This document shows positions 4,016 through 19,630 of a stretch of 64,000 nucleotides of DNA, piece after piece. Every line of letters begins with the position of its first letter. The first letter of the stretch is position 1. The notes beneath the pieces were generated by a model. That model was not told the origin of the DNA, made no database searches, and saw only the letters and a program-made list of their open reading frames with translations. This stretch comes from Rhodoplanes tepidamans (lineage in GTDB: Bacteria > Pseudomonadota > Alphaproteobacteria > Rhizobiales > Xanthobacteraceae): contig NZ_JAUSUJ010000018.1 in NCBI RefSeq assembly GCF_030813915.1, forward strand, positions 1 through 64,000, given 5' to 3'. The translations under genes were made by a program, and so were the position numbers.

Positions 4016-4477
4016 TCAGAAGTCCACAAGCGGCGTCTCCGGGATGTAGTGCTCGAAGAGAATCCAGAACGGCGCGTGGCGGTTCTCGACGTACCAGTTC
4101 TCGAACTCGGCGAGCGCCGCCGGGGCCGACGGCTCCGGCTCGTCCTCGCTCGTGAGGGAGCGGAACAGCGCCTGCGCGAAGGTCGCGAAACGCTCGATCA
4201 CCTCGCTGCGGGCCTCGCTGTCCTGGCTCCAGCCGAGCTTGCCGCGCAGCATGGCGAAGGCGATGCCCACCGCGCTCTCCTCGGCGTCGGCGCCCGCCAT
4301 CGCCTCGGCGAGCTCGCGCACGAGGTTGAGGCGGCGATACGCGAAGGCGCGCTCCTGCTCGAGCGCGGCGATGCGCTGCGCCGCCTCCCGGCGATACTCG
4401 CGCTCGGCCGTCTCGGCATGGCCGGCGGCCGCTTCGAGGGACTTCACGACCGACAGGGAGGAGACCGGCGTCGTCAT
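4016..4477 (-). CDS. Hypothetical protein directly downstream of selC
   Basis: A 153-residue protein with no family I recognise. Residues about 15-65 are helical and charged with a coiled-coil look (AETAEREYRREAAQRIAALEQERA). The C-terminal part is richer in aromatics (FENWYVENRHAPFWILFEHYIPETP). A GGGAG ribosome-binding site precedes the ATG. The start lies only 17 bases from the 3' end of tRNA-Sec, so it is probably co-transcribed with selB-selC. Its place in a selenium cluster suggests, but does not show, a related function. Confidence 0.65.
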   Translation of the reverse strand: MTTPVSSLSVVKSLEAAAGHAETAEREYRREAAQRIAALEQERAFAYRRLNLVRELAEAMAGADAEESAVGIAFAMLRGKLGWSQDSEARSEVIERFATFAQALFRSLTSEDEPEPSAPAALAEFENWYVENRHAPFWILFEHYIPETPLVDF

Positions 4478-6618
4478 CGCGCGCTCCCGAGAGGTGGCGG
4501 AAGAGAATGGGAGTCGAACCCACCAGAGACCGGCTCGCGGCCCCTCCCGGATTTGAAGTCCGGACGCCCCACCGGGGACGATTCTCTTCCGTTGTAATGT
4601 CTTCCAGCGTCGTCGGCAGGCGGCCCATCGCCTCGTGGATCGTCCGTTCGTGGAACGTCCGCCCGCAGACCGAACAGGTCGAGCCGATGCCTGTTCATGC
4701 GCCTGAGATCGCCGCGACGCAAGGTCACGCCGTGACGATCGAAGAATTCCAGGATCTGGATGGCGACCTTGCGGCCGTTGTCGAGCCGGTCGCGGAACTG
4801 CGCCGCCGTGAACACGCCCGCGTGGCCGGTGGCGAGATCGACCGCGATGGCCGCCATCTCGGCGACGGTGTCGCGCAGGAAGAAATGGTCGTGCGCCACC
4901 TCGTCGATGCGGCCGGTGCGCGCCGTCAGCTTGAGGACGCGCCGCACGACCGCCTCGTCGACCGCGAGCCGGCCGGCGATGTCGCGCACCCGCGGCGGCT
5001 TGAATTTCTCGGTGCCGCCGAGCGTCGGCGCGATCGCCTGCCAGAGCAGCTCCTCGGCCTCGTTCAGCCGCACGGCATGGCCGGGCCGGCGCACCCAGGC
5101 GCCGTCCAGCACCGCGGCCCCCTCGCGTGCGAGGCCCTGCAGCACCGAGCGGAAGGCCGGGGCCGGCAGGCGTGGCTCGATCTGCAGGCGCAGCCGCTCC
5201 AGCCCGACGCCCGGCAGGTCCGGGTTCTCGGCATGGAAGGCGTCGAGCCGGGCGACGATGTCGCGGACGAGCCGTTCCCAGGTCGAGGCGGCGAGCCCGA
5301 TCACCAGATCCCGGTCGGCGATGCAGACGACGCGCAGCGTCTCGACCAGGCGGACGAGCGCGTCGTCGGAGAGCGCGTGGTCGCGGGCGAAGCCGGTGAG
5401 CTCGACGTGAGACGGCGGGCGCCCCAGCAGCGCCGCGAGCGACGCGCCGGGATCGTCGAGCGCCAGCGCGTCGAGCTGGACGAGGCGCTCGGGCGTGCGG
5501 CGCTTGCGGGCCGGGGCGCGCAGGTCGAGGAAGCGGCCGCCGCCGATGGTGCGGCTCGCCGAGACGTCGCGCAGCACGAAGCGGTCGCCCGCCGCGGCGG
5601 CGATCGGCCGCTCCAGCACGAGCTGCACCCGGCCCTCGCGGCCGGGCCCGGGCGGGGTGTCGTCGAGCAGCACGATGCGGGCGCCGACCTCGGCGCTGGC
5701 GTGATGGAGCCGCACCGGCATCCACTGCGTCACCGGCTTCGGCTCGCCCGGCAGCAGGCGCAGCACGACGTCGATGCGGTCGGCCGGCGCGTGCAGGGCC
5801 GGGTCGAGCACCATGTCGCCGCGCCGGATCGCCTCCTTGCTGATCTGCTCGCCGGCGAGAGCGAGGGCGCAGCGGTCGCCGGCGACGCCCTCGCCGGCCG
5901 GACGGTTCTGCGCATGGATCGAACGGACGCGGGCGGCGAGCCCGGACGGGCTCACGGCGACGCGGTCGCCGACGGCGACGCGGCCCGACAGCACCGTGCC
6001 GGTCACCACCGTGCCGGTGCCGGTCAGCGTGAAGGACCGGTCGACGGCGAGCCGGAACCGTCGCCCCGTCCCCTCGCGCCGGCCGAAGCGCCGCGCCGCC
6101 TCGAACAGGCGGGTGCGCAGCGCCGCGATGCCCTCGCCCGTCACCGACGACACCGGAACGATGGCGGCTTCCGCGAGGCCGGTGCCGTCGAGGGCGCTCA
6201 GAATCTCCGCGGTCGCCGCGCCGCGGCGCTCGGCGGAGACGAGGTCGACCTTGGTCAGCGCGACGACGCCGCGGCGGATGCCGAGCAGATCGACGATGGC
6301 GAGATGCTCGCGGGTCTGCGGCATCACCCCGTCGTCGGCGGCGACCACCAGCAGCACCATGTCGATGCCGCTCGCCCCCGCCACCATGGTGTGGACGAAG
6401 CGCTCGTGGCCCGGCACGTCGACGAAGCCGAGCACGCCGCCGTCCGCCCCTGCGTCGCCGCCGGCCGGGTCCGCCGGGACCGGCAGATAGGCGAAGCCGA
6501 GGTCGATCGAGATGCCGCGCGCCTTCTCCTCCTTCAGGCGGTCGGTGTCGACGCCGGTCAGCACCCGCACCAGCGAGGTCTTGCCGTGGTCGATATGGCC
6601 CGCCGTGCCGACGATCAT
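4474..6618 (-). CDS. selB: Selenocysteine-specific elongation factor SelB
   Basis: SelB is the EF-Tu-like GTPase that carries Sec-tRNA to UGA codons marked by a SECIS hairpin. The N-terminus shows a G1 loop (GHIDHGKTS), a switch region ([11 protein letters not shown]), a G3 motif ([16 protein letters not shown]) and a G4 motif (TKVD), followed by beta-barrel domains. The C-terminal half carries the winged-helix repeats that bind SECIS RNA, ending near the [18 protein letters not shown] segment. The family-like part ends at about residue 648 (near 4675). The frame then runs on without a stop right through the tRNA-Sec gene to 4474, giving 714 residues in all. The start overlaps the stop of the Sel1-repeat gene. 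Confidence 0.95.
4495..4590 (-). tRNA. selC: tRNA-Sec (anticodon UCA)
   Basis: Read on the minus strand, the gene begins with GGAAGAGA, which pairs with the 3' TCTCTTCC as an 8-bp acceptor stem, the length typical of bacterial tRNA-Sec. It then has G and an encoded CCA. The anticodon arm is CCGGA - CTTCAAA - TCCGG with anticodon TCA at 4554-4556. A long variable arm and the T-loop segment GGTTCGACTCC follow. The length of 96 bases including CCA fits selC. It lies wholly inside the 3' extension of the selB frame. Confidence 0.96.
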
Positions 6619-7433
6619 GTCGCCTGTCCCGCGGGTGGATCGAGCGGTCCGGGATCCGGCAGCGGCGCGGCGGCGCGGCGGGCCGCCTCCGAGAGGCCGG
6701 CGGAGTCGAGCGGGTTGCGGGCCGCCGGCAGGTACTGCGCGGCGAGCGCGCTGCCGCCCGCCTGGGCGCGCAGCAGCCAGGCCAGCGCCTCGATCGGATC
6801 CGCCTCGACTCCGGCCCCCATGATCATGGCCGCGCCGAGCATCGCCTGGCCGGCGGCGTCGCCGCGTTCGGCGGCGCGCCGCCACCAGCGCACCGCCTCG
6901 GCCGGATCGCGCGGCACGCCCAGCGCGTCGTGATGGAGCATGCCCATGCGGGTCATCGCCGCGGCGACGCCCTGCTTCGCCGCGGCCTCGGCCCATCGAC
7001 GCGCTTCGAGGACGTCGCGCTCGATCACCTCGCCTTCGAGCAGCATCCAGCTCAGCATGTCCTGCGACACCCCGTCGCCCTGCTCGGCGGCGGCGCGGTA
7101 GAGGCGCGCCGCCTCGGCGAAATCGGGGGCCCGGTCCTCGCCCTTGAAATGGAGCGCCGCGAGGTTGCGCTGGCCGACCGGATCGCCGTTGCCGGCGGCG
7201 AGCTCGAGCCAGCGCCGCGCCAGCGCGAGGTCGCGCTCGACGCCGAGCCCTTCGGCGAAGCAGGCGCCGACATTGTTCTGGGCGCGCGGCACGCCCGCAT
7301 GGGCGAGCTCGGCCCACATGTCGAGCGCGGCCGTGTATTCGCCGCGGCCGGCGAGATCGTAGGCCTCGGCCATGCGGGCCTTCACGTCGATCGCCGGCGT
7401 CTCGCGGCCGAGCAGACGGTCAAGCCAGCGCAT
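6615..7433 (-). CDS. Sel1-repeat (TPR-like) protein between selA and selB
   Basis: The 272-residue protein consists mainly of Sel1-like repeats (about residues 20-240), with recurring units of the kind A-x-x-x-L-G/A-x-x-x-x-x-G-x-G-V-x-x-D and A-x-x-W-x-x-x-A-A-x-x-G. Such helical solenoids mediate protein-protein contacts. The name refers to the worm gene sel-1, not selenium. Nevertheless it is embedded in the Sec operon: its start overlaps the selA stop by 14 bases and its stop overlaps the selB start by 4, so translation is probably coupled. No signal peptide is seen, so it is likely cytoplasmic. A scaffold role for SelA/SelB or formate dehydrogenase assembly is speculative. Confidence 0.85.
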
Positions 7434-8859
7434 CGGCGCCTCCGGGCATGGACGCGAGGACCTGGAGGAAGCCCGACTCGTCGTCGAGACAGCGCAGGTC
7501 GAGCACCACGGCGCCGTCGGCGATGCGGCCGATCACCGGCACCGGCTGCTCGCGCAGCGCCTTCGCCAGGCTCTCGACGGCGCGGCCGGCGCCCCGCTCG
7601 TCGCGCGGACGGGCGAAGAGGCCGGCGCTCGCCAGCGTCGCCTGCGGCAGCGCGCCGGAGCCGATCTGGCTGGCGCAGTCGCCGGCCGTCACCTCGAAGC
7701 CGTCGCCGAGCGCCGCCGCGAGCGCTGGCGCGATCCGCCGCGCCTGGGCGAGAATCTCGGCCTGCGGCCGGGCGAGATGGCGCAGCGTCGGCAGCCGGTC
7801 GGCCAGCCGGTCGGGATCGCGATAGAGCCGCAGCGTCGCCTCGACCGCGGCGAGGCGGATCTTGTCGATGCGCAGCGCCCGCTTCATCGGGTTGCGGTTG
7901 ATCCGCTGGATCAGGTCCTTGCGCCCGACGACGAAGCCCGCCTGCGGGCCGCCCAGCAGCTTGTCGCCCGAGAAGGTGACGAGATCGGCCCCCGCCGCCA
8001 CCGCCTCGGCGACGGTCGGCTCGCGGGCGAGGCCGAAGCGGGCGAGATCGACGAGCGTGCCGGAGCCGAGATCGTCGACCACCGGCACGTTCCTCTCACG
8101 CGCGATGGCCACCAGCTCCTTCGCGGAGACGGCCGCGGTGAATCCCTCGATGCGGTAGTTCGAGGTGTGCACCTTGAGCACCAGGCCGGTGCGCTCCGAG
8201 AGCGCCTCGGCATAGTCTCCGGGATGCGTGCGGTTCGTCGTGCCGACCTCGACCAGCACCGTGCCGGCGCGGGCCATGATGTCGGGCATGCGGAAGGCGC
8301 CGCCGATCTCGATCAGCTCGCCGCGCGAGACGATCGCCTCGCGGTCCTTCGCCAGCGTGTTGAGGACCAGCAGCACGGCGGCGGCGTTGTTGTTGACGAG
8401 GGTCGCGTCCTCGGCGCCGGTGAGCTCGCACAGGAGATCGCGCACCAGCCCGTCGCGCTCGCCACGCCTGCCGGTCGAGAGGTCGAACTCGAGCGCCACG
8501 GTCCGCCGCATCGCCGCGACGGCGGCCTCGACCGCCGTCTCGGCCAGCACGGCGCGGCCCAGGTTGGTGTGCAGCACCACGCCGGTGAGATTGAGCACCG
8601 GGCGCACCGCCGGCGTCGCATCGGCGACGAGCCTCGCGAGCGCCGCCTGCGCCAGCGTGTCGGCCGACGGCGCCGTGTCGGCGGCCCCCTGGGCCCGCAG
8701 CGCCGTCCGCGTCTCGTCGAGCGCGGCCCGCACCGCCGCGACCGCCGCCGGCCGGCCGAACCGATCGACCGCGACGGCCGCCGTGCCGGTCTTCAGCACC
8801 TCGTCCACGGACGGAAGCCGGCGGAGCGCCGCGTCTCGGACCATCGCCCGGGAGCTCAT
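7420..8859 (-). CDS. selA: L-seryl-tRNA(Sec) selenium transferase SelA
   Basis: SelA is a PLP enzyme that converts seryl-tRNA(Sec) to selenocysteyl-tRNA(Sec) using selenophosphate. The 479-residue length is close to other bacterial SelA proteins. Visible family features include the N-terminal segment LPSVDEVL, the VLNLTGVVLHTNLGRA block, the VVDDLGSGTLVDL block, and the PLP-binding lysine in TFSGDKLLGGPQAG. The ATG follows the fdhE stop by 8 bases, and the 3' end overlaps the Sel1-repeat gene. The window holds all partners needed for its job: selC, selB, selD and an fdnG client with an in-frame UGA. Confidence 0.96.
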   Translation of the reverse strand: MSSRAMVRDAALRRLPSVDEVLKTGTAAVAVDRFGRPAAVAAVRAALDETRTALRAQGAADTAPSADTLAQAALARLVADATPAVRPVLNLTGVVLHTNLGRAVLAETAVEAAVAAMRRTVALEFDLSTGRRGERDGLVRDLLCELTGAEDATLVNNNAAAVLLVLNTLAKDREAIVSRGELIEIGGAFRMPDIMARAGTVLVEVGTTNRTHPGDYAEALSERTGLVLKVHTSNYRIEGFTAAVSAKELVAIARERNVPVVDDLGSGTLVDLARFGLAREPTVAEAVAAGADLVTFSGDKLLGGPQAGFVVGRKDLIQRINRNPMKRALRIDKIRLAAVEATLRLYRDPDRLADRLPTLRHLARPQAEILAQARRIAPALAAALGDGFEVTAGDCASQIGSGALPQATLASAGLFARPRDERGAGRAVESLAKALREQPVPVIGRIADGAVVLDLRCLDDESGFLQVLASMPGGADALA

Positions 8860-8867
8860 TCCGGGCC

Positions 8868-9785
8868 TCAGACGCCGAGCATGAACGGGTTGACGCTGCC
8901 GCGCTTCATCCCGGTCTCGCGCACCAGAAGATCGAGCCCGAGCGTCGCGACGTCGTCGGCGACCGGATCGAGGCCTGGGTCCTTGTCGCGGTACAGCACC
9001 TTGGCGTAATGGCCGCACTCCGAGCAGGTCTCCGCCTTGATGGTGCCGCCGGCGCCCTCGACCTCCTGATAGGAGATGCCCTTGGTGCTGCCGCAGGAGG
9101 TGCAGCGGATGCGGACATAGTTCCACTGCGTGCTGCACTGGGCGCAGATGCAGTAGCGCGCCGCGTTGGCGCCGCCGATCTCGTCGATCACCGAGACCAC
9201 CGGGCGGCCGCCGCAGGCCGGGCACACGGCGTCGCCCACCTGGACGAGAGCCTTCGGGTCGAGCGTCGCGGCGAGGCGGGCGAAATGGACCTGCAGGGCG
9301 GCGGCGACCAGCACGTGCTCGGCGATCGCCTCGACCGGAATCGCATCGGCCAGCACGGCCCGCATCATCACGGTGCGGCTCGCCGGATCGGCCTCCGCCA
9401 CACGGCGGAGCGCGGTCCGGGCCTGGTCCGGCATGTGGCAGTCGGCGAACAGCACCAGCAGGCGGTCGAGCGTCGCCGTGCAGACGGCGTCGGGCGAAAA
9501 GCCCTGGCGGTCGAGCGGCGGCATGTGGTGGGCGCGGGCGCGCGCCACCGTCTCGGCCTCGGGCGGCGTCACCGGCGGCAGCTCCTGCTGCACCCAGTGC
9601 TGGGCGCTGGCGAGATCGGCCAGGAAGATCAGGTAGGGCTTCAGCGGATGCCCGTCCGCGAGGGCGCGAAACCGGTCGCTGCGGCGCAGGAACAGGGTCT
9701 CGGGATCGGGCCGCACCGCGAAGGGCGGCGCCGTGATGGTGCCGAGCTCGCCGTAGCTGCCCGCACCGGAACCGAAATCAGTCAT
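8868..9785 (-). CDS. fdhE: Formate dehydrogenase accessory protein FdhE
   Basis: FdhE is needed to mature respiratory formate dehydrogenases and is thought to act on the Tat-exported FdnG/FdoG subunit before export. The protein (305 residues from the ATG at 9785) carries the four characteristic CxxC pairs in its C-terminal half: CPACGG, CAQCSTQW, CTSCGS and CSECGH. The start is either this ATG or the GTG three bases upstream; GAGGTGAG lies just before it. The gene lies between the fdn structural operon and selA, with a repeat-containing gap of about 270 bases upstream. Confidence 0.94.
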   Translation of the reverse strand: MTDFGSGAGSYGELGTITAPPFAVRPDPETLFLRRSDRFRALADGHPLKPYLIFLADLASAQHWVQQELPPVTPPEAETVARARAHHMPPLDRQGFSPDAVCTATLDRLLVLFADCHMPDQARTALRRVAEADPASRTVMMRAVLADAIPVEAIAEHVLVAAALQVHFARLAATLDPKALVQVGDAVCPACGGRPVVSVIDEIGGANAARYCICAQCSTQWNYVRIRCTSCGSTKGISYQEVEGAGGTIKAETCSECGHYAKVLYRDKDPGLDPVADDVATLGLDLLVRETGMKRGSVNPFMLGV

Positions 9786-9869
9786 CACTCACCTCACGAA
9801 CCGCACGGGCCACGTGACAGGACCAGGACCGCGGAAGCTAATCAGAAAAACGGGATTGCGCCAAACGTC

Positions 9870-10072: not shown

Positions 10073-10804
10073 TCACTCCGCCGGCGTGCCGGTCGGGGTG
10101 CGCACGTGGTTGGTCTTTTCGCTCCGGGCGAGCTGGCGCAGCCACATGCGGTGGTGCTTGAAGGCCCACCCGCCCGAGACCTTGCCCTTGACCATCGCGG
10201 TCATGGTGCCGCGGGCCCACACGGCGCCGTAGATGTGGACGATCAGGATGCAGACCATCACGATCGCCCCGAGCGAGTGGACCAGCACGGCGACGCGCTT
10301 CTGCTCCACCGTGGTGTAGGCGCCGAAATACTGCTCCCAGATCACCACGCCGGTCCCGATCATGATCAGGATCAGGATGCCCATCCACCAGAACACCGCC
10401 TTCTGGGCGAAGTTGAAGCGCCCCACCTCCGGCATCTTGTCCTCGTCGCCGGCCAGGAACGTGTGGATGTTCTTGAGCCAGCTCCCGTCCGCCGGCGACC
10501 ACAGGTTGACCCGCCAGAAGCGCAGGAACAGCCCGGTGAAGCCGAGGAACAGGAAGACGCCGAACCACGGATGGATCGTCCGGGTCCACTGGCCGCCGCC
10601 GAACAGGCCGGTGAGCCAGTAGAGGCTGGGGTGGAACAGCGCGAACCCCGAGAGGGCGAGGAGCACGAATCCCCCCGCCGTCAGCCAGTGGTTGATCCGG
10701 GCCGCCGTCGAGTAGCGGACGACCACGACCGGCTCGACGACCGGATCGCCCTTCTCGAGAGCGTCGCCCTTGACGACCTCTCGTCTTTCGTTCGTCACGC
10801 TCAT
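10073..10804 (-). CDS. fdnI: Formate dehydrogenase gamma subunit, cytochrome b556 (FdnI/FdoI type)
   Basis: This 243-residue integral membrane subunit passes electrons from the beta subunit to quinone. Four hydrophobic segments are visible: about FVLLALSGFALF, WFGVFLFLGFTGLFL, AVFWWMGILILIMIGTGVV and LVHSLGAIVMVCILIVHIYG. Conserved histidines (INHWL, IHPWF, LVHSL and VHIYG) fit b-type haem ligands. It follows fdnH by 12 bases, with GGGAGAA before the start. The ATG at 10804 is preferred over the GTG just upstream on spacing. It is the last structural gene of fdnGHI. Confidence 0.94.
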   Translation of the reverse strand: MSVTNERREVVKGDALEKGDPVVEPVVVVRYSTAARINHWLTAGGFVLLALSGFALFHPSLYWLTGLFGGGQWTRTIHPWFGVFLFLGFTGLFLRFWRVNLWSPADGSWLKNIHTFLAGDEDKMPEVGRFNFAQKAVFWWMGILILIMIGTGVVIWEQYFGAYTTVEQKRVAVLVHSLGAIVMVCILIVHIYGAVWARGTMTAMVKGKVSGGWAFKHHRMWLRQLARSEKTNHVRTPTGTPAE

Positions 10805-10816
10805 CACGCGTTCTCC

Positions 10817-11770
10817 CTAGGCGTTCTCGCCGGCCGGCGGCTTCTCGGCCATCTCCTTGGCCTTCTCCTCGTCGTGCGGGGAGACGCGGCTCGCCCCCGA
10901 GAAGATTCCGTGGACGACCGTGACGGCCGCCATCGCGCCGATGGCGGCGAAGCCGGCGTACTTGGCGACGCCCTTCCAGATCTCGACCAGCGGGCTGATC
11001 CGCGGGTTGTTCGGCAGGCCGGCGTAGATCTCCGGCTTGTCGGCATGGTGCAGCACGTACATCACATGCGTGCCGCCCACCCCCGGCGGATCGTACAGGC
11101 CGGCGTTCTTGAAGCCGCGGGACTTCAGGTCCTTGATGCGGCCGTCGGCCCACTGCTTCATGTCGTCCTTGGTGCCGAACACGATCGCCTGGGTGGGGCA
11201 CGCCTTGGCACAGGCCGGGCCCTGGCCGACCGCGACGCGGTCGGAGCAGAGCGTGCACTTGTAGGCCTTGTTGTCGACCTTGGAGATGCGCGGGATGTCG
11301 AACGGACATCCCTTCACGCAGTAGCCGCAGCCGATGCAGTTGTCGTGGACGAAGTCCACGATGCCGTTCGAGTACTGCACGATCGCGCCCGGCGCCGGGC
11401 ACGCCTTGAGGCAGCCCGGATCCTCGCAGTGCATGCAGCCGTCCTTGCGGATCAGCCACTCGAGGTTCTTGGTCTCCGGGTTCTCCCATTCGGTGAAGCG
11501 CATCAGCGTGAACGACGCCGGCGTCAGGTCGTGCGGGTTGTCGTAGACGCCGACATTGACGCCGACCTCCTCGACCATGTCGTTCCACTGCAGGCAGGCC
11601 GACTGGCAGGCCTTGCAGCCGATGCACTTCGACACGTCGATGAGCTTGGCCACCTCGGTCTGCCGCTTGGCGGGCGGCGTCACGGTGGACGCCGACCGGC
11701 GGATCAGGTCCTGGTCGCCGAAGCGCGGCGGGGTCGGAGCGGTGGTCGGGTTCGGGAGCGGGGGAAACAT
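10817..11770 (-). CDS. fdnH: Formate dehydrogenase beta subunit, four-cluster ferredoxin protein (FdnH/FdoH type)
   Basis: The 317-residue protein carries the four cysteine groups of the Fdn/Fdo electron-transfer subunit: [35 protein letters not shown] and CTLCSDR...CAKAC. A C-terminal hydrophobic segment (about 265-290, [16 protein letters not shown]) anchors it to the membrane, as in FdnH. It moves electrons from the molybdenum subunit FdnG to the cytochrome FdnI. The start follows the fdnG stop by 15 bases and the stop precedes fdnI by 12, so the three form one operon. Confidence 0.95.
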
Positions 11771-11785: not shown

Positions 11786-14700
11786 TTACGCGACCGGCCC
11801 GGCGACGGGCTCGATGTCGACCAGGAACGCCTTGTATTCCGGCGTCTCGATGTTGGCGTCACCGACGAACGGGGTGAGCGAGTTCGGTCCGAATCCCTTC
11901 CTGGCCGCGCCCGTGAATCCCCAGTGCAGCGGGATGCCGACGATGTGGACGGTCTTGCCGTCGCAGGTCAGCGGCTTGATGCGCTTGGTCACCACCGCCT
12001 TGGCCGTCACGCTGCCGCGCTTCGACCACACCCGGACGGTGCCGCCCTTCTCGATGCCCTTCTCCTTGGCGAGCTCCTCGCTGATCTCGACGAAGAACTC
12101 GGGCTGGAGGACGGCGTTCGCGTGGGCGTGCTTGGTCCAGAAGTGGAAGTGCTCGGTGAGCCGGTAGGAGGTCGCGGCGTAGGGGAACTCCTTGGCGTCG
12201 CCGAACTGCTCGAAGTCGTTGCGGAACACCCGGGCCACCGGATTGCCGCGCACCTTCGGCGCGACGACGTTGACGACCGGCGACTCGAACGGCTCGTAGT
12301 GCGACGGGAACGGCCCGTCGCGCATCATGGCGCGAGTGAACAGCCGCGAGGTGCCCTCCGGGTTCATGATGAACGGCATCACGGTGTCGGGTTTGGCGGT
12401 GGGCGCGATGTCCGGCACGTCGTAGCCGGTCCACTTGGCGCCGTCCCACCACAGGAGCTTGCGGCTCTCGTCCCACGGCTTGCCCTGCAGGTCCGAGGAG
12501 GCCCGGTTGTACAGGATGCGCCGGTTCACCGGCCACGACCACGACCACTTGAGATAGGCGCCGGTGTCGTCCGGGTCCGAGGTGTCGCGGCGGGCCATGT
12601 TGTTGCCCGCCTCGTTGAAGCAGCCGGAATAGATCCAGCAGCCGCACGCGGTCGAGCCGTCGTCGCGCAGGGCCGCGAACGACACCACCTGCTTGCCCTT
12701 GGTGAGCAGCGTCTTGGTGGGATCGCTCGGATCCGGCACGTCGGAGACGACGTAGCCGTTGAGCTCCTTGGCGAGCTCCTCGGCGGTCGGCTCGTGCGGG
12801 TCCTTGTAGCGCCAGTCGAGATTGACGATCGGCTCCGGGACCTTGCCGCCCTCCTTGCGGTACAGCTCCTTCAGCCGCAGATGGATCTGCGCCATGATCC
12901 AGGCGTCGGTCTTCGCCTCGCCGGGCGGCGAGCCGCCGGGCCAGTGCCACTGCAGCCAGCGGCCCGAGTTGGTCAGCGACCCCTCGTCCTCGGCGAAGCA
13001 GGTGGTCGGCAGCTCGATCACCTCGGTCTGGATCTTCGACGGGTCGACGTCGTTGTTCGCCCCGTGGTTCTCCCAGAACCGCGCCGTCTCGGTCTGCAGC
13101 GGGTCCATCACCACCAGGAACTTCAGCTTCGAGAGCGCGGAGGTGATCTTCTTGCGGTTCGGGAACGACAGCAGGGGGTTGAAGCCCTGGCAGAAGTACC
13201 CGTTCATCTTGCCCTGGTGCATCAGCTCGAAGGCGCGCAGCACGTCGTAGGCCGGCACGTCGAGCTTGGGCAGCCAGTCGTAGGCGAAGCTGTTCTCCGG
13301 AGTCGCGGCGTCGCCCCACATGGCCTTCTGGAAGCTCACGAAGAACTTCCGGTAGTTCTGCCAGTAGCTCATCTGGTTGGGCCGCAGGGGCTTGAAGCCG
13401 CGCGTCGACATGTAGGCGTCGAAGCTCGGCTCGCGCTCCGTCGGGATCGTCAGATAGCCCGGGATCAGGTTCGACATGAGCCCGATGTCGGTCAGCCCCT
13501 GGATGTTGGAGTGACCGCGCAGCGCGTTCATGCCGCCGCCGCGCACCCCGATATTGCCCAGGATGAGCTGCAGCATCGCCATCGACCGGATGTTCTGCGA
13601 CCCCTTCGAGTGTTGGGTCCAGCCGAGGGCGTACATCGACGTCATCGTCTTCACGGGAGACGAGCACTCGGAGATCATCCTGGCGATCGTCAGGAACTTG
13701 TCCTTCGGAGTGCCGCAGATGCGCTCGACCAGCTCGGGCGTGTAGAGCGAGACGTGGCTCTTCAGCAGGTTCCAGACGCAGCGCGGATTCTGCAGCGTCT
13801 CGTCGACGACCGCGAAGCCGTCCGGCCCGATCTCGTAGTCCCAGGTCGAGCGGTTGTAGTCACGCTTCTGCTCGTCGTAGCCGGTGAACAGGCCGTCCTG
13901 CCAGCCGAACCCCTCCTTCACGACGAAGGCCGCGTTGGTGAAGTTCTTGACGTACTCCCACTGCACCTTGTCGTTCCGGATGCAGTAGTTGATCACGCCG
14001 AGCAGGAACGCGATGTCGGTCCCCTGCCGGATCGGCGCGTAGTAGTCCGCCACCGACGCCGTGCGGGTGAAGCGCGGGTCGACGACGATCAGCTTGGCGC
14101 CACGGTTGGCCTTGGCCTCGGTGACCCACTTGAATCCGCAAGGATGCGCCTCGGCGGCATTCCCGCCCATGACGACGACGAGGTCCGTGTTCTTGATGTC
14201 GGTCCACGAATTCGTCATCGCACCACGGCCGAACGTCGGGGCCAGACTGGCCACCGTCGGGCCGTGTCAAACACGGGCCTGGTTGTCGAACGCCACCATT
14301 CCGGTGCTGCGGACGACCTTGTAGGTCGCCCACGCGGTCTCGTTGGTCGTCGCCGACGCGGCCAGGAAGCCGGTGGTCGTCCACCGGTTCACGGTCACGC
14401 CGTCGTTGTTCTTCAGAACGATGTTCTGGTCGCGATCGTCCTTCATCAGGCGGGCGATGCGGTCGAGCGCCTGATCCCAGGAGACGCGCTCGAACTTGTC
14501 GGAGCCCGCCTTGCGGATCTGCGGATGGAGGGTGCGGGTCTTGGCGTGGACGACATCGCGCAGCGCCGCGCCCTTCGGGCACAGGGTGCCGCGATTGGTC
14601 GGATGGTCGGCGTCGCCTTCGATGTTGACGATCTCGGCCTTCTCGCCCTTCTTCAGATCACCCTTCGAGTAGATGATGATGCCGCAGGCGACCGAGCAGT

Positions 14701-14866
14701 AGGTGCAGGTGTTGCGGGCCTCGGCGGTGTTCGCGAGCTTGAACGGCCGGATCGCCGCCGCATGCGCGGCCTCGACGTCGCCGAAGCCGAACGCACCGAG
14801 CGTGGTGCCCGCGAGACCCGCGCCTGCGCCGGCCAAGAAGCCGCGCCGCGAGAGCTCCATGTTCAT
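11786..14866 (-). CDS. fdnG: Selenocysteine-containing formate dehydrogenase alpha subunit (FdnG/FdoG type)
   Basis: This is the catalytic molybdenum/tungsten-bis-MGD subunit that oxidises formate. The gene looks broken at 14267-14269 (TGA), but the residues on both sides (NQARV, then HGPTVASLAPTFGRG) match the family exactly around its selenocysteine, so the UGA encodes Sec at residue 200. Read through, the protein has 1026 residues, close to the E. coli FdnG length. It starts with a Tat signal (SRRGFLAGAGAG), so it is folded before export to the periplasm. Then comes a 4Fe-4S motif (CTYCSVACG). The start has AGGAGG upstream. The C-terminal part is the molybdopterin dinucleotide-binding domain. 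Standard annotation would split it in two. Confidence 0.96.
14224..14269 (-). promoter_or_regulatory. Selenocysteine UGA codon plus bacterial SECIS hairpin in fdnG
   Basis: Directly after the UGA (14267-14269), CACGGCC (14260-14266) can pair perfectly with GGCCGTG (14224-14230). Inside, GG-U-GGCC / GGCC-CC forms an apical stem with a bulged U and an AGUCU loop (14244-14248). A bulged U and a GU in the apical loop are the features SelB recognises in E. coli formate dehydrogenase SECIS elements. The loop begins 19 bases after the UGA, in the usual range. Confidence 0.93.
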
Positions 14867-15155: not shown

Positions 15156-15908
15156 TTGACGCGGGGGACGCCGCTCTCGCAGAGTGCGGCCGTGATCGCG
15201 AGCACGGCTCCCGGGTGCCGGGGCCCCCTCACCTTGTCGCAAGCCTTATCGCAGCACCGGCGCCGCACCGGGCCGGTATTCCGTTGCGCCGCGGAGGTCG
15301 CGCCCGCCGCGCGCGGTCGCGGCGCGTCGCGGTTGCAGCGCCGCGATCTGCTGCGCCTTTTTGCTGCAGGCCTCCTCGTCGAGCTCCTGCCCGGCGGATT
15401 CGGGCCCGTCGCACCGGCGGCCGCGTCCGAGACGCGGCTGCGGCCGTGGAGCGGTACGAGTCCGACCGGCGTGGCGCTCGACGCGACGACGGGCGCCCGC
15501 GTCGCCCTGGACGATGCCCGCGGCCGGACGGTGATTCTCCATTTCTTCGCGACCTGGTGCGGGCCCTGCCGGGCCGAGCTGGTCCTGCTGCAGGAATTCG
15601 CCGACCGCCGGGACGACCTGATCACGCTCGCCGTCGACGTCGGCGAGGTCGACGCGCGGGTGAAGCGCTTCGCCGGCGAGATCGGCTGGAGGCGACCCGT
15701 GCTGCTCGACCGCGACCGCGCGGTGGCGCGCGCCTTCGGCGTTTCGGCGCTGCCGACCACCATCGTGCTCGACGCCACCCTGACGCCGCGGCTGATCGCC
15801 GAGGGCGACCTCGACTGGCGGACCACCGCCGTGACCGATCCGATCGTGACGCTCGCCACGCCAACCCCCGACGGGAGGAGACAAGCATGCATCGACGCGA
15901 CGTGTTGA
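15156..15908 (+). CDS. TlpA-like thioredoxin-fold protein, probably exported
   Basis: The C-terminal half is a TlpA/ResA-like thioredoxin domain with the active site FFATWCGPCRAEL and a cis-proline segment (SALPTTIVL). Before it is a twin-arginine-like signal (LQRRDLLRLFAAG...) near residue 61. The true N-terminus is therefore probably internal: the first 55 or so residues look unstructured, but no good in-frame ATG or GTG lies nearer the signal, so the 15156 ATG is kept. Its stop overlaps the start of the transglutaminase-like gene by 22 bases. It probably reduces or isomerises disulfides in the periplasm; partners are unknown. Confidence 0.75.
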   Translation: MTRGTPLSQSAAVIASTAPGCRGPLTLSQALSQHRRRTGPVFRCAAEVAPAARGRGASRLQRRDLLRLFAAGLLVELLPGGFGPVAPAAASETRLRPWSGTSPTGVALDATTGARVALDDARGRTVILHFFATWCGPCRAELVLLQEFADRRDDLITLAVDVGEVDARVKRFAGEIGWRRPVLLDRDRAVARAFGVSALPTTIVLDATLTPRLIAEGDLDWRTTAVTDPIVTLATPTPDGRRQACIDATC

Positions 15909-17008
15909 AGGCCGGTGCCGCCCTGGCGGCGACCGCCACCCTGCCCGGGCTCGCGCCGGCGCAAGGCGCCGCGTCGTCGGCGGCGGCTGCCGGCTTCGCG
16001 CCGAAGCCCGGCGCGTGGCGCAGCTTCGAGGTGACGACCCGGCTGGAGATCGCGAGGCCCGAGGGCCGCACCCAGGCCTGGGTGCCGGTGCCGAGCGTCG
16101 ACGAGGAGGCCTGGTTCCGCTCGCTCGACAGCACCTTCACGTCGAACGGCGAGGCCGCGCTGGTGCGCGAGCCGAAATACGGCGCCGGCATGATCCACGT
16201 CGAATGGGCGGCCGGCGAGGCGGCGCCGTTCGTCGAGGTGCGCAGCCGCGTCGCGACCCGCGACCGGGCGACCGACTTCTCGACGCCGGTCCGTCCCGCC
16301 CCGCTGTCGGCGGCCGAGCGCGCGCTCTACACCGAGGGCACCGATCTCATCCCGGTCGACGGCATCGTCAAGGCGACGGCGGAGAAGATCACGGCCGGCG
16401 CGCGCGACGACGTCGCCAAGGCGAAGGCGATCTACGAGTGGATCGTCGACAACACGTTCCGCGACGCCAAGGTGCGCGGCTGCGGCATCGGCGACATCGC
16501 GGCGATGCTGAAGACCGGCCATCTCGGCGGCAAGTGCGCCGACCTCAACGCGCTCTATGTCGGCCTCGCCCGCGCCGCCGGCCTGCCGGCCCGCGACGTC
16601 TACGGCATCCGCCTGGCGCCCTCCGCCTTCGGCTACAAGAGCCTCGGCGCCGGCTCCGAGGTGATCACCAAGGCGCAGCACTGCCGCGCCGAGGTGTGGC
16701 TCGCGGCGTTCGGCTGGGTGCCGGTCGATCCGGCCGACGTGCGCAAGGTGGTCCTGGAGGAGCCGCCGGCCAACCTCGCGCTGAGCGATCCGAAGGTGAC
16801 GGCCGCCCGCGCGGCCCTGTTCGGCGCCTGGGAGACCAACTGGCTCGCCTACAATGTCGCGCACGACCTCGCGCTGCCGGGCGCGCAGGGGCCGAAGATC
16901 GGCTTCCTGATGTATCCGCAGGCCGAGACCGCCAGCCAGCGCCTCGACTGCCTCGATCCGGACTCGTTCCGCTACGTGATCAGGGCCAAGGAGACGACGG
17001 CGGCGTGA
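15887..17008 (+). CDS. Tat-exported transglutaminase-like (papain-fold) protein
   Basis: The 373-residue protein has a clear Tat signal (MHRRDVLKAGAALAATATLPGLA), then a beta-rich region (about 40-150). A transglutaminase-like core follows with the Cys-His-Asp triad visible as GGKCADLNALYVGLARAAG, then QHCRAEVWL, then VPVDPAD. Proteins of this type are proteases or amide-modifying enzymes. GGGAGGAG precedes the ATG. It is coupled to the upstream thioredoxin-like gene, which suggests the latter keeps its active-site cysteine reduced in the periplasm. The selenium-supply genes follow after a repeat, so common transcription is possible but unproven. Confidence 0.85.
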   Translation: MHRRDVLKAGAALAATATLPGLAPAQGAASSAAAAGFAPKPGAWRSFEVTTRLEIARPEGRTQAWVPVPSVDEEAWFRSLDSTFTSNGEAALVREPKYGAGMIHVEWAAGEAAPFVEVRSRVATRDRATDFSTPVRPAPLSAAERALYTEGTDLIPVDGIVKATAEKITAGARDDVAKAKAIYEWIVDNTFRDAKVRGCGIGDIAAMLKTGHLGGKCADLNALYVGLARAAGLPARDVYGIRLAPSAFGYKSLGAGSEVITKAQHCRAEVWLAAFGWVPVDPADVRKVVLEEPPANLALSDPKVTAARAALFGAWETNWLAYNVAHDLALPGAQGPKIGFLMYPQAETASQRLDCLDPDSFRYVIRAKETTAA

Positions 17009-17047
17009 ACGATCGTCGCGAGCGACGAGGCATCCCGGTTCTCCGCT

Positions 17048-17120
17048 CATTCCCGCGCAAGCGGGAATCCAGGGCCACACGTCGTGAGGCCCCTGGGTCC
17101 CGGCCTTCGCGGGGACGAGC
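17048..17120. repeat. Intergenic palindromic repeat, family C
   Basis: Begins cattcccgcgcaagcgggaa and ends tcccggccttcgcggggacg, with gggccacacgtcgtgaggccc between. It separates the transglutaminase-like gene from the TusA-family gene. Confidence 0.75.
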
Positions 17121-17141
17121 GGAGAGTGAAGAGCGAGGACG

Positions 17142-17384
17142 ATGACAGACGCGAACACCACCGAAACCGTCCTCGATCTCCGCGGGCTCTACTGCCCGCT
17201 GCCGGTGCTGAAGGCCAAGACGGCGCTGCGGCACGTGCCGGTCGGCGGCACGCTGGTGCTCGAATGCACGGACCCGCTGACCGTGATCGACGTGCCGCAT
17301 TTCGTCGCGCAGACCGGTCACCGGCTCGGCGGCCAGGAGAGGACCGGCGACCTCTACGTCTTCCGCATCGTGAAGCAGCATTGA
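17142..17384 (+). CDS. TusA/YedF-family sulfur (or selenium) carrier protein
   Basis: The 80-residue protein carries the family signature [16 protein letters not shown], whose cysteine (CPxP) holds the transferred sulfur as a persulfide, plus the later DIP-like segment ([13 protein letters not shown]). TusA-family proteins take sulfur from cysteine desulfurases and pass it on; YedF-type members are often found in genomes that use selenium. Here it sits 30 bases before a cysteine desulfurase gene, which overlaps selD. A role as intermediate carrier of selenium for SelD is an attractive inference. General sulfur transfer, for example to tRNA or formate dehydrogenase, is the alternative. Confidence 0.9.
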
Positions 17385-17414
17385 ACGGCCGCACGGCCGC
17401 CTGGACGAACCGTC

Positions 17415-18584
17415 ATGATCCCCGTCTATCTCGACCACAACGCGACGACGCCGATCGACGAGGACGTCCTCGCCGTCATGCTGCCCTATCTGCGCGAGCG
17501 GTTCGGCAACCCGTCCTCGTCGCATCCGCCGGGCCGCCGCGCCCGCGAGGCGGTGGAGACCGCGCGGGCCGAGGTGGCGGGCCTGATCGGCGCCGCCCCC
17601 GACGAGATCGTGTTCACCAGCGGCGGCACCGAGGCGAGCAACACGGCGATCCGCGGCGCCGCGGCGGCCCGGGAGGGACGGCGCGGCATCGTCACGACGG
17701 TGCTGGAGCATCCGGCGACGGACGAATGCTGCCGCCTGCTGGAGCGTGCCGGCCATCCGGTGCGCCGCGTCGCGGCGCGAGCGGACGGCCGCGTCGCCGC
17801 CGACGACGTGATCGCGGCGCTCGACGACACCGTCGCGCTCGTCACCCTCATCCACGCCCAGAACGAGATCGGCACGCTGCAGCCGGTGGACGAGATCGCG
17901 CGCGCCGCCCGGGCGCGCGGCGTCTGGGTGCACGCCGACGCGGCGCAGTCGCTCGGCAAGGTGCCGGTCGACGTCGACGCGCTCGGCGTCGACCTGCTCA
18001 CCATCGCGGGCCACAAGCTCTACGCCCCCAAGGGCATCGGCGCCCTCTATGTCCGCGGCGGCATCGCGCTGCCGCCGCTGCTCGCCGGCGCCGGCCAGGA
18101 GCACGGCATGCGGCCCGGCACCGAGAACGTCGCCTTCATCGTCGCGCTCGGCGCCGCCTGCCGCATCGCCGCCCGGAAGCTCGACCGCGACGCGGTGCGG
18201 ATCGGGGCCCTCGCCGGCCAGCTGCTGGTGCGGCTGCAGCGCGCCGTGCCGGGGCTGGCGCTCACCGGCCATCCCGACCAGCGGCTGCCCAACACGCTGA
18301 ACCTGCTGTTCTCCGGCGTCTCGGGCCGCGCCCTGCTCGAGGCCTGCCCGCACGTGCTCGCCTCCACGGGCTCGGCCTGCCATGCCGGCAGCGAGGAGCC
18401 CTCCGCCGTGCTGCTGGCGCTCGGCATCGACCGGGCCGCGGCGCTCGGCGCCGTGCGCCTGTCGCTCGGGCGCGCCACCACGGCGACCGACGTCGAGGCC
18501 GCCGCCGACCATCTCGCCGCCGCCTGGCGGCGCCTGCGCGCCGCGGCCGAGGCCGCCCCGCGCCTCTCCGGAGCCCCCACATGA
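17415..18584 (+). CDS. Cysteine desulfurase, NifS/IscS-like class V aminotransferase
   Basis: The 389-residue PLP enzyme begins with the family hallmark [11 protein letters not shown]. It has the GGTEASN segment, a [10 protein letters not shown] segment, the PLP lysine in [12 protein letters not shown], and the active-site loop [11 protein letters not shown] with the persulfide-forming cysteine. It should release sulfur (or selenium from selenocysteine) as an enzyme-bound persulfide. The stop overlaps the selD start (ATGA), and a TusA-family gene lies just upstream. No iscU, iscA or nif genes are nearby, which favours a role in selenium supply over Fe-S cluster assembly. Precise specificity cannot be told from sequence. 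Confidence 0.92.
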
Positions 18585-19630
18585 CCATCCACGACGTCCG
18601 CCTCACCAGCCTCGCCCATGGCGGCGGCTGCGGCTGCAAGCTCGCCCCCGCGGTGCTGCAGCAGCTCCTCGCCGCGCAGCCGGCGGCCGGCCCCTTCAAG
18701 CAGCTCCTGGTCGGCACCGAGACCGGCGACGACGCCGCCGTCTGGCAGATCGACGAGACCACCTGCGTGATCGCCACCACCGACTTCTTCATGCCGATGG
18801 TGGACGACCCGTTCGACTTCGGCCGGATCGCCGCCACCAACGCGATCTCCGACGTCTACGCGATGGGCGGCAGGCCGATCATGGCGCTCGCCATCCTCGG
18901 CATGCCGATCGACAAGATGCCGCCCGAGACGATCCGCAGCATCCTGAAGGGCGGCGCCAGCATCTGTGCCGAGGCCGGCATCCCGGTCGCCGGCGGGCAC
19001 TCGATCGACTCGCCGGAGCCGATCTACGGGCTCGCCGTGATCGGCACCTGCCGGCCCGACCAGGTCCGCCGCAACGCCGACGCGCGGCCCGGCGACGACC
19101 TGATCCTCACCAAGGCGCTCGGCGTCGGCATCTACGCGTCGGCGATCAAGAAGTGCGTGCTGCCCGAGGGCGCCTACGACGAGATGATCGCCTCGACGAC
19201 GCTGCTCAACCGCATCGGCGCCGATCTCGCCCGCGACCCGGCCGTGCACGCCGTCACCGACGTCACCGGCTTCGGCCTGCTCGGCCACGGGCTGGAGATG
19301 GCGCGGGGCGCCGGCGTGACGCTGACCACCTCGCTGCAGGCCGTGCCGCTGCTGTCGCGGGCGGCCGAGCTCGCCGAGGCCGGCTGCGTCACCGGCGCCT
19401 CGCACCGCAACTGGGCGAGCTACGGGAGCGCCGTAGAGCTCCCCGAAAGCCTGCCGGAGTGGCGGCGCCACGTCCTCACCGACCCGCAGACCTCGGGCGG
19501 CCTGCTGATCGCCTGCGCTCCGCAGCGCACCGACGCGCTCCTGCGCACCATCGTCGAGGCCGGCTACCCGGCGGCGAGCCGCATCGGCCACGTCGAAGAC
19601 GGCCCGGCGGCGATCCGCGTGGTGGGATGA
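18581..19630 (+). CDS. selD: Selenide, water dikinase SelD (selenophosphate synthetase)
   Basis: SelD makes monoselenophosphate from selenide and ATP, the selenium donor for SelA. The 349-residue length is that of the family. The glycine-rich catalytic loop HGGGCGCK has cysteine where some SelD proteins carry selenocysteine, so it does not depend on its own pathway. Other family blocks are [37 protein letters not shown] and [12 protein letters not shown]. The start overlaps the stop of the cysteine desulfurase gene, implying translational coupling between the presumed selenium-releasing enzyme and SelD. Confidence 0.97.

Follow-up and report, generated by a model that had tools for sequence, protein, structure and literature searches.

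Is the formate dehydrogenase gene on the minus strand of the window (the whole 64,000-nucleotide stretch of Rhodoplanes tepidamans DNA analysed here) broken by its in-frame TGA, or is that codon read as selenocysteine (Sec)? Judged from the locus and its relatives, fdnG almost certainly encodes a Sec-containing, membrane-linked formate dehydrogenase catalytic subunit of the FdnGHI type, whose UGA would be read as Sec via SelB. The gene and its recoded codon lie as follows:

11786–14866, minus strand: fdnG, formate dehydrogenase-N alpha subunit, 1026 residues with Sec predicted at residue 200 (translation; TIGR01553; 1kqf_A)
14267–14269, minus strand: in-frame TGA, predicted Sec at residue 200 in the motif U-H-G-P (translation; TGA in 80 of 80 relatives and the window)

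The in-frame TGA of fdnG

Under the standard code fdnG falls into two open reading frames of 199 and 822 residues (ORF listing), and the TGA at 14269–14267 is the sole stop inside the minus-strand frame 14866–11786. Translated through this codon, the product comprises 199 residues upstream of the TGA, Sec as residue 200 and 826 residues downstream. An earlier note on this DNA had described this split, a 1026-residue read-through product and Sec at residue 200, and translation bears out both position and frame. Its statement that the family match continues on either side of the TGA likewise holds, as the product matches TIGR01553 over residues 5–1019 (1427.7 bits, cut-off 814.2; profile search) and aligns with 1kqf_A over residues 3–1020 (1413.6 bits), both alignments covering both flanks. 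In the latter, the comparison with FdnG that the note had proposed, a non-standard residue (X), which we take to be Sec, lies directly opposite the TGA. The N-terminus of the product is presumably twin-arginine-like. Locally, the sequence NQARV-U-HGP places an in-frame UGA at residue 200 within the U-H-x-P motif that is given for Sec formate dehydrogenase in Table 1 of PMC13188914, in the available text of that paper.

Relatives were collected by a protein scan of genome contigs, using search patterns that exclude the Sec site, and the best 80 of 588 confirmed matches were kept (closest named relative among these 80: Rhodoplanes elegans, 93% amino-acid identity). TGA occupies the Sec site in all 80 of them as well as in the window. 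A residue other than Sec or Cys at this column, named in the earlier note as evidence against its reading, did not appear in these alignments: the homologues have TGA and 1kqf has X.

The SECIS hairpin and its conservation

14214–14272, minus strand: SECIS element, Rfam SECIS_3, hairpin proper 14266–14224 (Rfam search, folding, pair conservation)

The SECIS hairpin that had been noticed after the TGA was recovered: the Rfam model SECIS_3 (RF01989) matches 14272–14214 at 87.2 bits (cut-off 63; E = 2e-19 for the whole window), aligning over model positions 1–59 of 59, and the 46 bases originally noted (14269–14224) have a folding energy of −27 kcal/mol (z = −3.6, equalled by 0 of 200 shuffles). 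The 59-base stretch folds less strikingly (z = −2.15, 5 of 200 shuffles as good), and the 23-base apical part reaches −10.7 kcal/mol (z = −1.82, 12 of 200 shuffles as good). From its base, the predicted hairpin rises through an outer stem of 7 bp and two successive 2-bp steps to a bulged U, above which 5 bp lead to a GUC triloop closed by A-U (AGUCU if the closing pair is left open); the bulged U and short GU-containing loop claimed for the apical stem are thus both present in the folding and in the SECIS_3 alignment. According to the bSECIS rules in the available text of PMC13188914, the apical loop has 3–9 nt with a G within the first two positions, the upper stem has 4–16 bp, 16–37 nt separate UGA and loop, and the energy is at most −7.5 kcal/mol. 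The window has a GUC triloop, an upper stem of 5 bp, bulged U and 2 bp, 19 nt from UGA to triloop, and an energy within the stated limit.

The perfect outer arms of the earlier note, CACGGCC (14266–14260) and GGCCGTG (14230–14224), are indeed exact complements over 7 bp in the window, but the outer helix is incompletely kept in relatives. Pairs were compared across 81 aligned elements (43 distinct sequences). Among the distinct sequences no readable cell of the apical helix is unpaired (one base is unread); four of this helix's seven pairs are invariant, and the other three have changed on both sides. In the outer helix 87.3% of cells are paired, the unpaired columns being 5/45 (18 of 43 sequences), 12/39 (27 of 43) and 9/41 (4 of 43), and two of its nine pairs are often broken in relatives. 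The covariation score was 0.184, compared with a shuffle mean of 0.078 (reached by 0 of 500 shuffles) and 0.021–0.072 for slid partners; two of five pair measures fail to beat shuffles over the 43 distinct sequences; pairs changed on both sides number 4, a value equalled by 294 of 500 shuffles, and further pair types number 8, equalled by 393 of 500, and in all these shuffle comparisons the relatedness of the sequences can inflate the values.

Constraint was also visible at the level of codons. In the 15 codons that follow the TGA, codon entropy is 0.62 of the expectation from codon usage versus 0.85 at 69 other conserved columns, statistics that ignore ancestry; in 15-codon windows clear of the post-TGA codons the ratio is never below 0.70, and 5 of the 15 post-TGA codons lie at or above the expected entropy. 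The loop serine is encoded by AGT in 81 of 81 rows. In fdnG across the 80 loci (L084, ended by a contig edge, apparently left out), AGT makes up 135 of the 3934 serine codons counted, and 79 of these 135 are at the loop site. Furthermore, the sixth and ninth codons downstream of the TGA (14251–14249 and 14242–14240, minus strand) encode either Ala and Ala or Ser and Gly, changing together; this joint swap occurs because the two codons pair in the hairpin, the Ala+Ala and Ser+Gly codons keeping a G-C or U-G pair at the cost of an altered protein. VASLAP and VSSLGP after the TGA show no mixed case in the 81 rows (L033 has an unread base). An absolute coupling was considered and rejected, being broken by L101 (VASLGP), and L102 differs altogether; both lie outside the 81 rows, among the 14 loci (L089–L102) found by the SECIS model. 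Taken together, the apical pairing, the three compensatory pairs and the AGT loop codon indicate that the SECIS hairpin is under selection as RNA.

Selenocysteine machinery in the window and in related genomes

The gene cluster around fdnG consists of the following features:

10817–11770, minus strand: fdnH/fdxH, iron-sulphur beta subunit (TIGR01582, 481.3 bits, cut-off 334.7)
10073–10807, minus strand: fdnI, cytochrome b gamma subunit (TIGR01583, 165.9 bits, cut-off 115.85)
8868–9788, minus strand: fdhE, formate dehydrogenase accessory protein (TIGR01562, 284.4 bits, cut-off 187.65)
7420–8826, minus strand: selA, L-seryl-tRNA(Sec) selenium transferase (TIGR00474, 587.4 bits, cut-off 267.9; coordinates run from the start of the profile match to the ORF end, the true start lying slightly upstream)
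6615–7433, minus strand: Sel1-repeat protein between selA and selB (PF08238, 129.8 bits)
4474–6618, minus strand: selB, Sec-specific elongation factor (TIGR00475, 412.7 bits, profile match 4696–6618)
4495–4590, minus strand: tRNA-Sec (selC), anticodon TCA (RF01852, 81.8 bits at 4499–4590; ARAGORN)
4016–4477, minus strand: ORF of 153 residues, its ATG overlapping the selB stop (ATGA)
17415–18584, plus strand: cysteine desulfurase of the NifS/IscS kind beside selD (TIGR03402, 422.6 bits, below the cut-off of 530.75)
18599–19528, plus strand: selD, selenophosphate synthetase, profile match (TIGR00476, 431.1 bits; no internal stop)

On the minus strand the order is fdnG-fdnH-fdnI-fdhE-selA-Sel1 repeat-selB-tRNA-Sec, and the plus strand carries the cysteine desulfurase and selD. 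With selA, selB, selC and selD all found, the Sec-decoding trait is complete in the window. The cysteine desulfurase beside selD is a possible selenium donor. The 153-residue ORF at 4016–4477 has no Pfam match at E 0.001. As separate observations, a Sel1-repeat gene is annotated at the same place, between selA and selB, in S. meliloti; a divergent plus-strand set at 15156–19630 comprises a thioredoxin-like protein, a Tat-signal transglutaminase-like protein, the cysteine desulfurase and selD; and selD and a transglutaminase-like gene likewise adjoin fdnG in Phyllobacterium.

The tRNA-Sec of the window lies wholly within the selB frame, which has no stop before the tRNA, is open across all 96 of its bases and ends with a TGA at 4476–4474; the last base of this stop lies at +117 relative to the 5′ end of the tRNA, and the stop overlaps the start of the ORF at 4016–4477 (ATGA). 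Across 81 stretches (80 loci and the window), 13 were without a tRNA-Sec; in the other 68, selB runs through the tRNA in 51, stops inside it in 3 and stops before it in 14. Where selB enters the tRNA (54 cases), it does so 51 times in the fully open frame and 3 times in the other two frames, a count that ignores shared ancestry. The available text of PMC8124441 (Mukai 2021) describes a tRNA-Sec nested in selB, with the stop overlapping the next ATG, in Rhizobiales, and proposes that tRNA processing represses full-length SelB; the passage of selB through the tRNA-Sec, considered here as a possible new feature, had already been published there. A further reading, less likely than not, builds on this published hypothesis: because the tRNA-Sec would be cut from the selB message, its maturation and the synthesis of full-length SelB would be mutually exclusive, and the cluster would thereby contain a built-in brake on how often the UGA of fdnG is decoded as Sec.

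We surveyed 60 genomes related at the level of genus, family or order, the window's own counted. FdnG was found at E 1e-150 or better in 15 of them, every match above the cut-off and each with one TGA, and no Cys version of fdnG was seen among these 15 matches. SelB occurs in 17 of the 60 genomes, including all 15 with FdnG, and the same 17 have a high-scoring tRNA-Sec (at least 69.7 bits), called tRNA-SeC by ARAGORN in 17 of 17; in the other 43 genomes the best tRNA-Sec matches reach at most 54.2 bits, and three that were typed are Ser or Leu tRNAs. SECIS_3 is above its cut-off in 14 of the 60 genomes. Genome G009 gave 39.2 bits, also with a TGA, and G033 a 24-bit SECIS_3 match (L103) without one; in sister genomes, the weak SECIS_3 matches L104 and L105 fall on TGC codons of other genes, FDH-like by eye. 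The drafts G021 and G025 (L123, L130, L146, L147) have SelB and tRNA-Sec without FdnG at E 1e-150, so Sec machinery and such an FdnG are not strictly tied. Neither draft had a SECIS_3 match above the cut-off or an internal stop in its other formate dehydrogenase matches or in SelD, a pattern that could arise from a gap in the assembly or from a different selenoprotein. In one of the 15 genomes with FdnG, G027 (L144, G027:C1:205000-209000), fdnG has, besides its Sec TGA, an in-frame TAG 58 codons before it, which may reflect a nonsense mutation, an error in sequencing or something more unusual.

In the window's own genome there are seven further weak SECIS_3 matches (E 0.137–8.78). The three hit-strand frames of each of the best four, inspected by eye, held no recognised selenoprotein; the SECIS_3 model fits one SECIS type, and the genome may encode other selenoproteins. 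No internal stop was found in the other formate-dehydrogenase-like matches listed for this genome.

Probable recoding, its rivals and known systems

In E. coli it is established that SelB recognises the apical hairpin while carrying Sec-tRNA(Sec), and that Sec is inserted at the UGA. Here, a ribosome reaching the UGA at 14269–14267 would likewise meet SelB with Sec-tRNA(Sec) bound to the hairpin downstream; Sec delivery would compete with release factor 2, and where it prevailed translation would run on to yield the 1026-residue enzyme with an active-site Sec at 200. SelB binding, Sec insertion, molybdenum ligation, Tat export and formate oxidation are all carried over from E. coli and would be expected by analogy. 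The Sec reading of residue 200 given in the earlier note is supported, on sequence grounds, by the family match, the TGA of relatives, the SECIS_3 match and the Sec machinery.

Three other accounts of the TGA were weighed. If a Cys codon had been misread or misassembled as TGA, fdnG would encode an ordinary Cys formate dehydrogenase, for which there are precedents: Cys homologues exist in the wider family (PMC1794560, available text), and the L104 and L105 matches mentioned above are TGC codons in FDH-like genes. The identical TGA in the best 80 of 588 relatives, the complete SECIS after it and the Sec machinery in the same cluster argue against an error, which we consider exceedingly improbable and refuted for practical purposes; the relatives and the hairpin leave practically no room for the specific possibility raised in the earlier note, a misread TGC. 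The two ORFs that the standard code yields would also be expected of a decaying pseudogene in which a true nonsense mutation had left a 199-residue fragment. A decaying gene, however, fits poorly with a TGA shared by all 80 of these relatives, an intact downstream half, a read-through product that fits the family profile nearly end to end and a codon constraint that is strongest just after the TGA, and the chance that fdnG is such a pseudogene appears vanishingly small.

The remaining account accepts read-through and differs in the residue, the UGA being decoded as something other than Sec, such as Cys inserted by an unusual tRNA. The window's tRNA-Sec has the anticodon TCA and is accompanied by SelA and SelD, and residue 200 lies opposite the X of 1kqf, taken to be Sec; these points make another residue very improbable, even with such recoding on record in other bacteria (a title cited in the available text of PMC8124441). 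Insertion of Sec at residue 200 is the reading we retain.

The correct annotation would accordingly be a single 1026-residue selenoenzyme, with the organism counted as a Sec user. The earlier note had expected automatic pipelines to call two fragments or a pseudogene, which is not generally so: fdnG is whole in all three annotated records opened (E. coli RefSeq, Sinorhizobium meliloti GenBank and Phyllobacterium RefSeq), each giving one CDS across the TGA, and all 10 E. coli rows listed name fdnG. For PLSDB plasmids, 25 rows were listed of 148 records, with fdnG named in 8, no gene in 14 (an incomplete table) and 3 unannotated; because of these 14 and 3 rows, annotation of fdnG may vary between records. 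Recognising every bacterial selenoprotein gene is still described as a challenge in the available text of PMC12013277 (deep-Sep).

With respect to known systems, the product belongs to the family of E. coli FdnG/FdoG (1kqf; TIGR01553) over nearly its full length, with a non-standard residue at the same column. E. coli fdnG shares the TGA (codon 196 there, 200 here), the UHGP context and the AGUCU loop letters, and differs in the letters of the SECIS stem. The sel genes form one cluster with fdnGHI here, whereas none lies in the 3-kb flanks of fdnG in the E. coli record; we take it that in E. coli the sel genes do not adjoin fdnGHI.

The nested tRNA-Sec agrees with Mukai 2021 (PMC8124441), the window's selB likewise being open through the tRNA with its stop overlapping the ATG of the next ORF; the difference is that Rhodoplanes is not named in that paper's main text. 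According to the available text of PMC1794560 (Zhang et al. 2006), the Sec-decoding Alphaproteobacteria found all have a selA-selB-selC operon with fdhA as neighbour, and fdhA is their only selenoprotein gene; in that of PMC13188914, FdhA is the most widely distributed selenoprotein family of bacteria. The Sel1-repeat gene and the cysteine desulfurase on the selD side go unmentioned in the available text of PMC1794560; nothing of substance differs, and the window has the fdhA-selA-selB-selC arrangement. Because PMC13188914 and PMC1794560, in their available text, already describe it, neither the kind of finding nor its setting is new. It raises no further question, and the adjoining nested tRNA-Sec offers the more testable biology, itself described before. 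The Sec recoding predicted for fdnG in the window is ordinary, a textbook case of the best-known bacterial selenoprotein.
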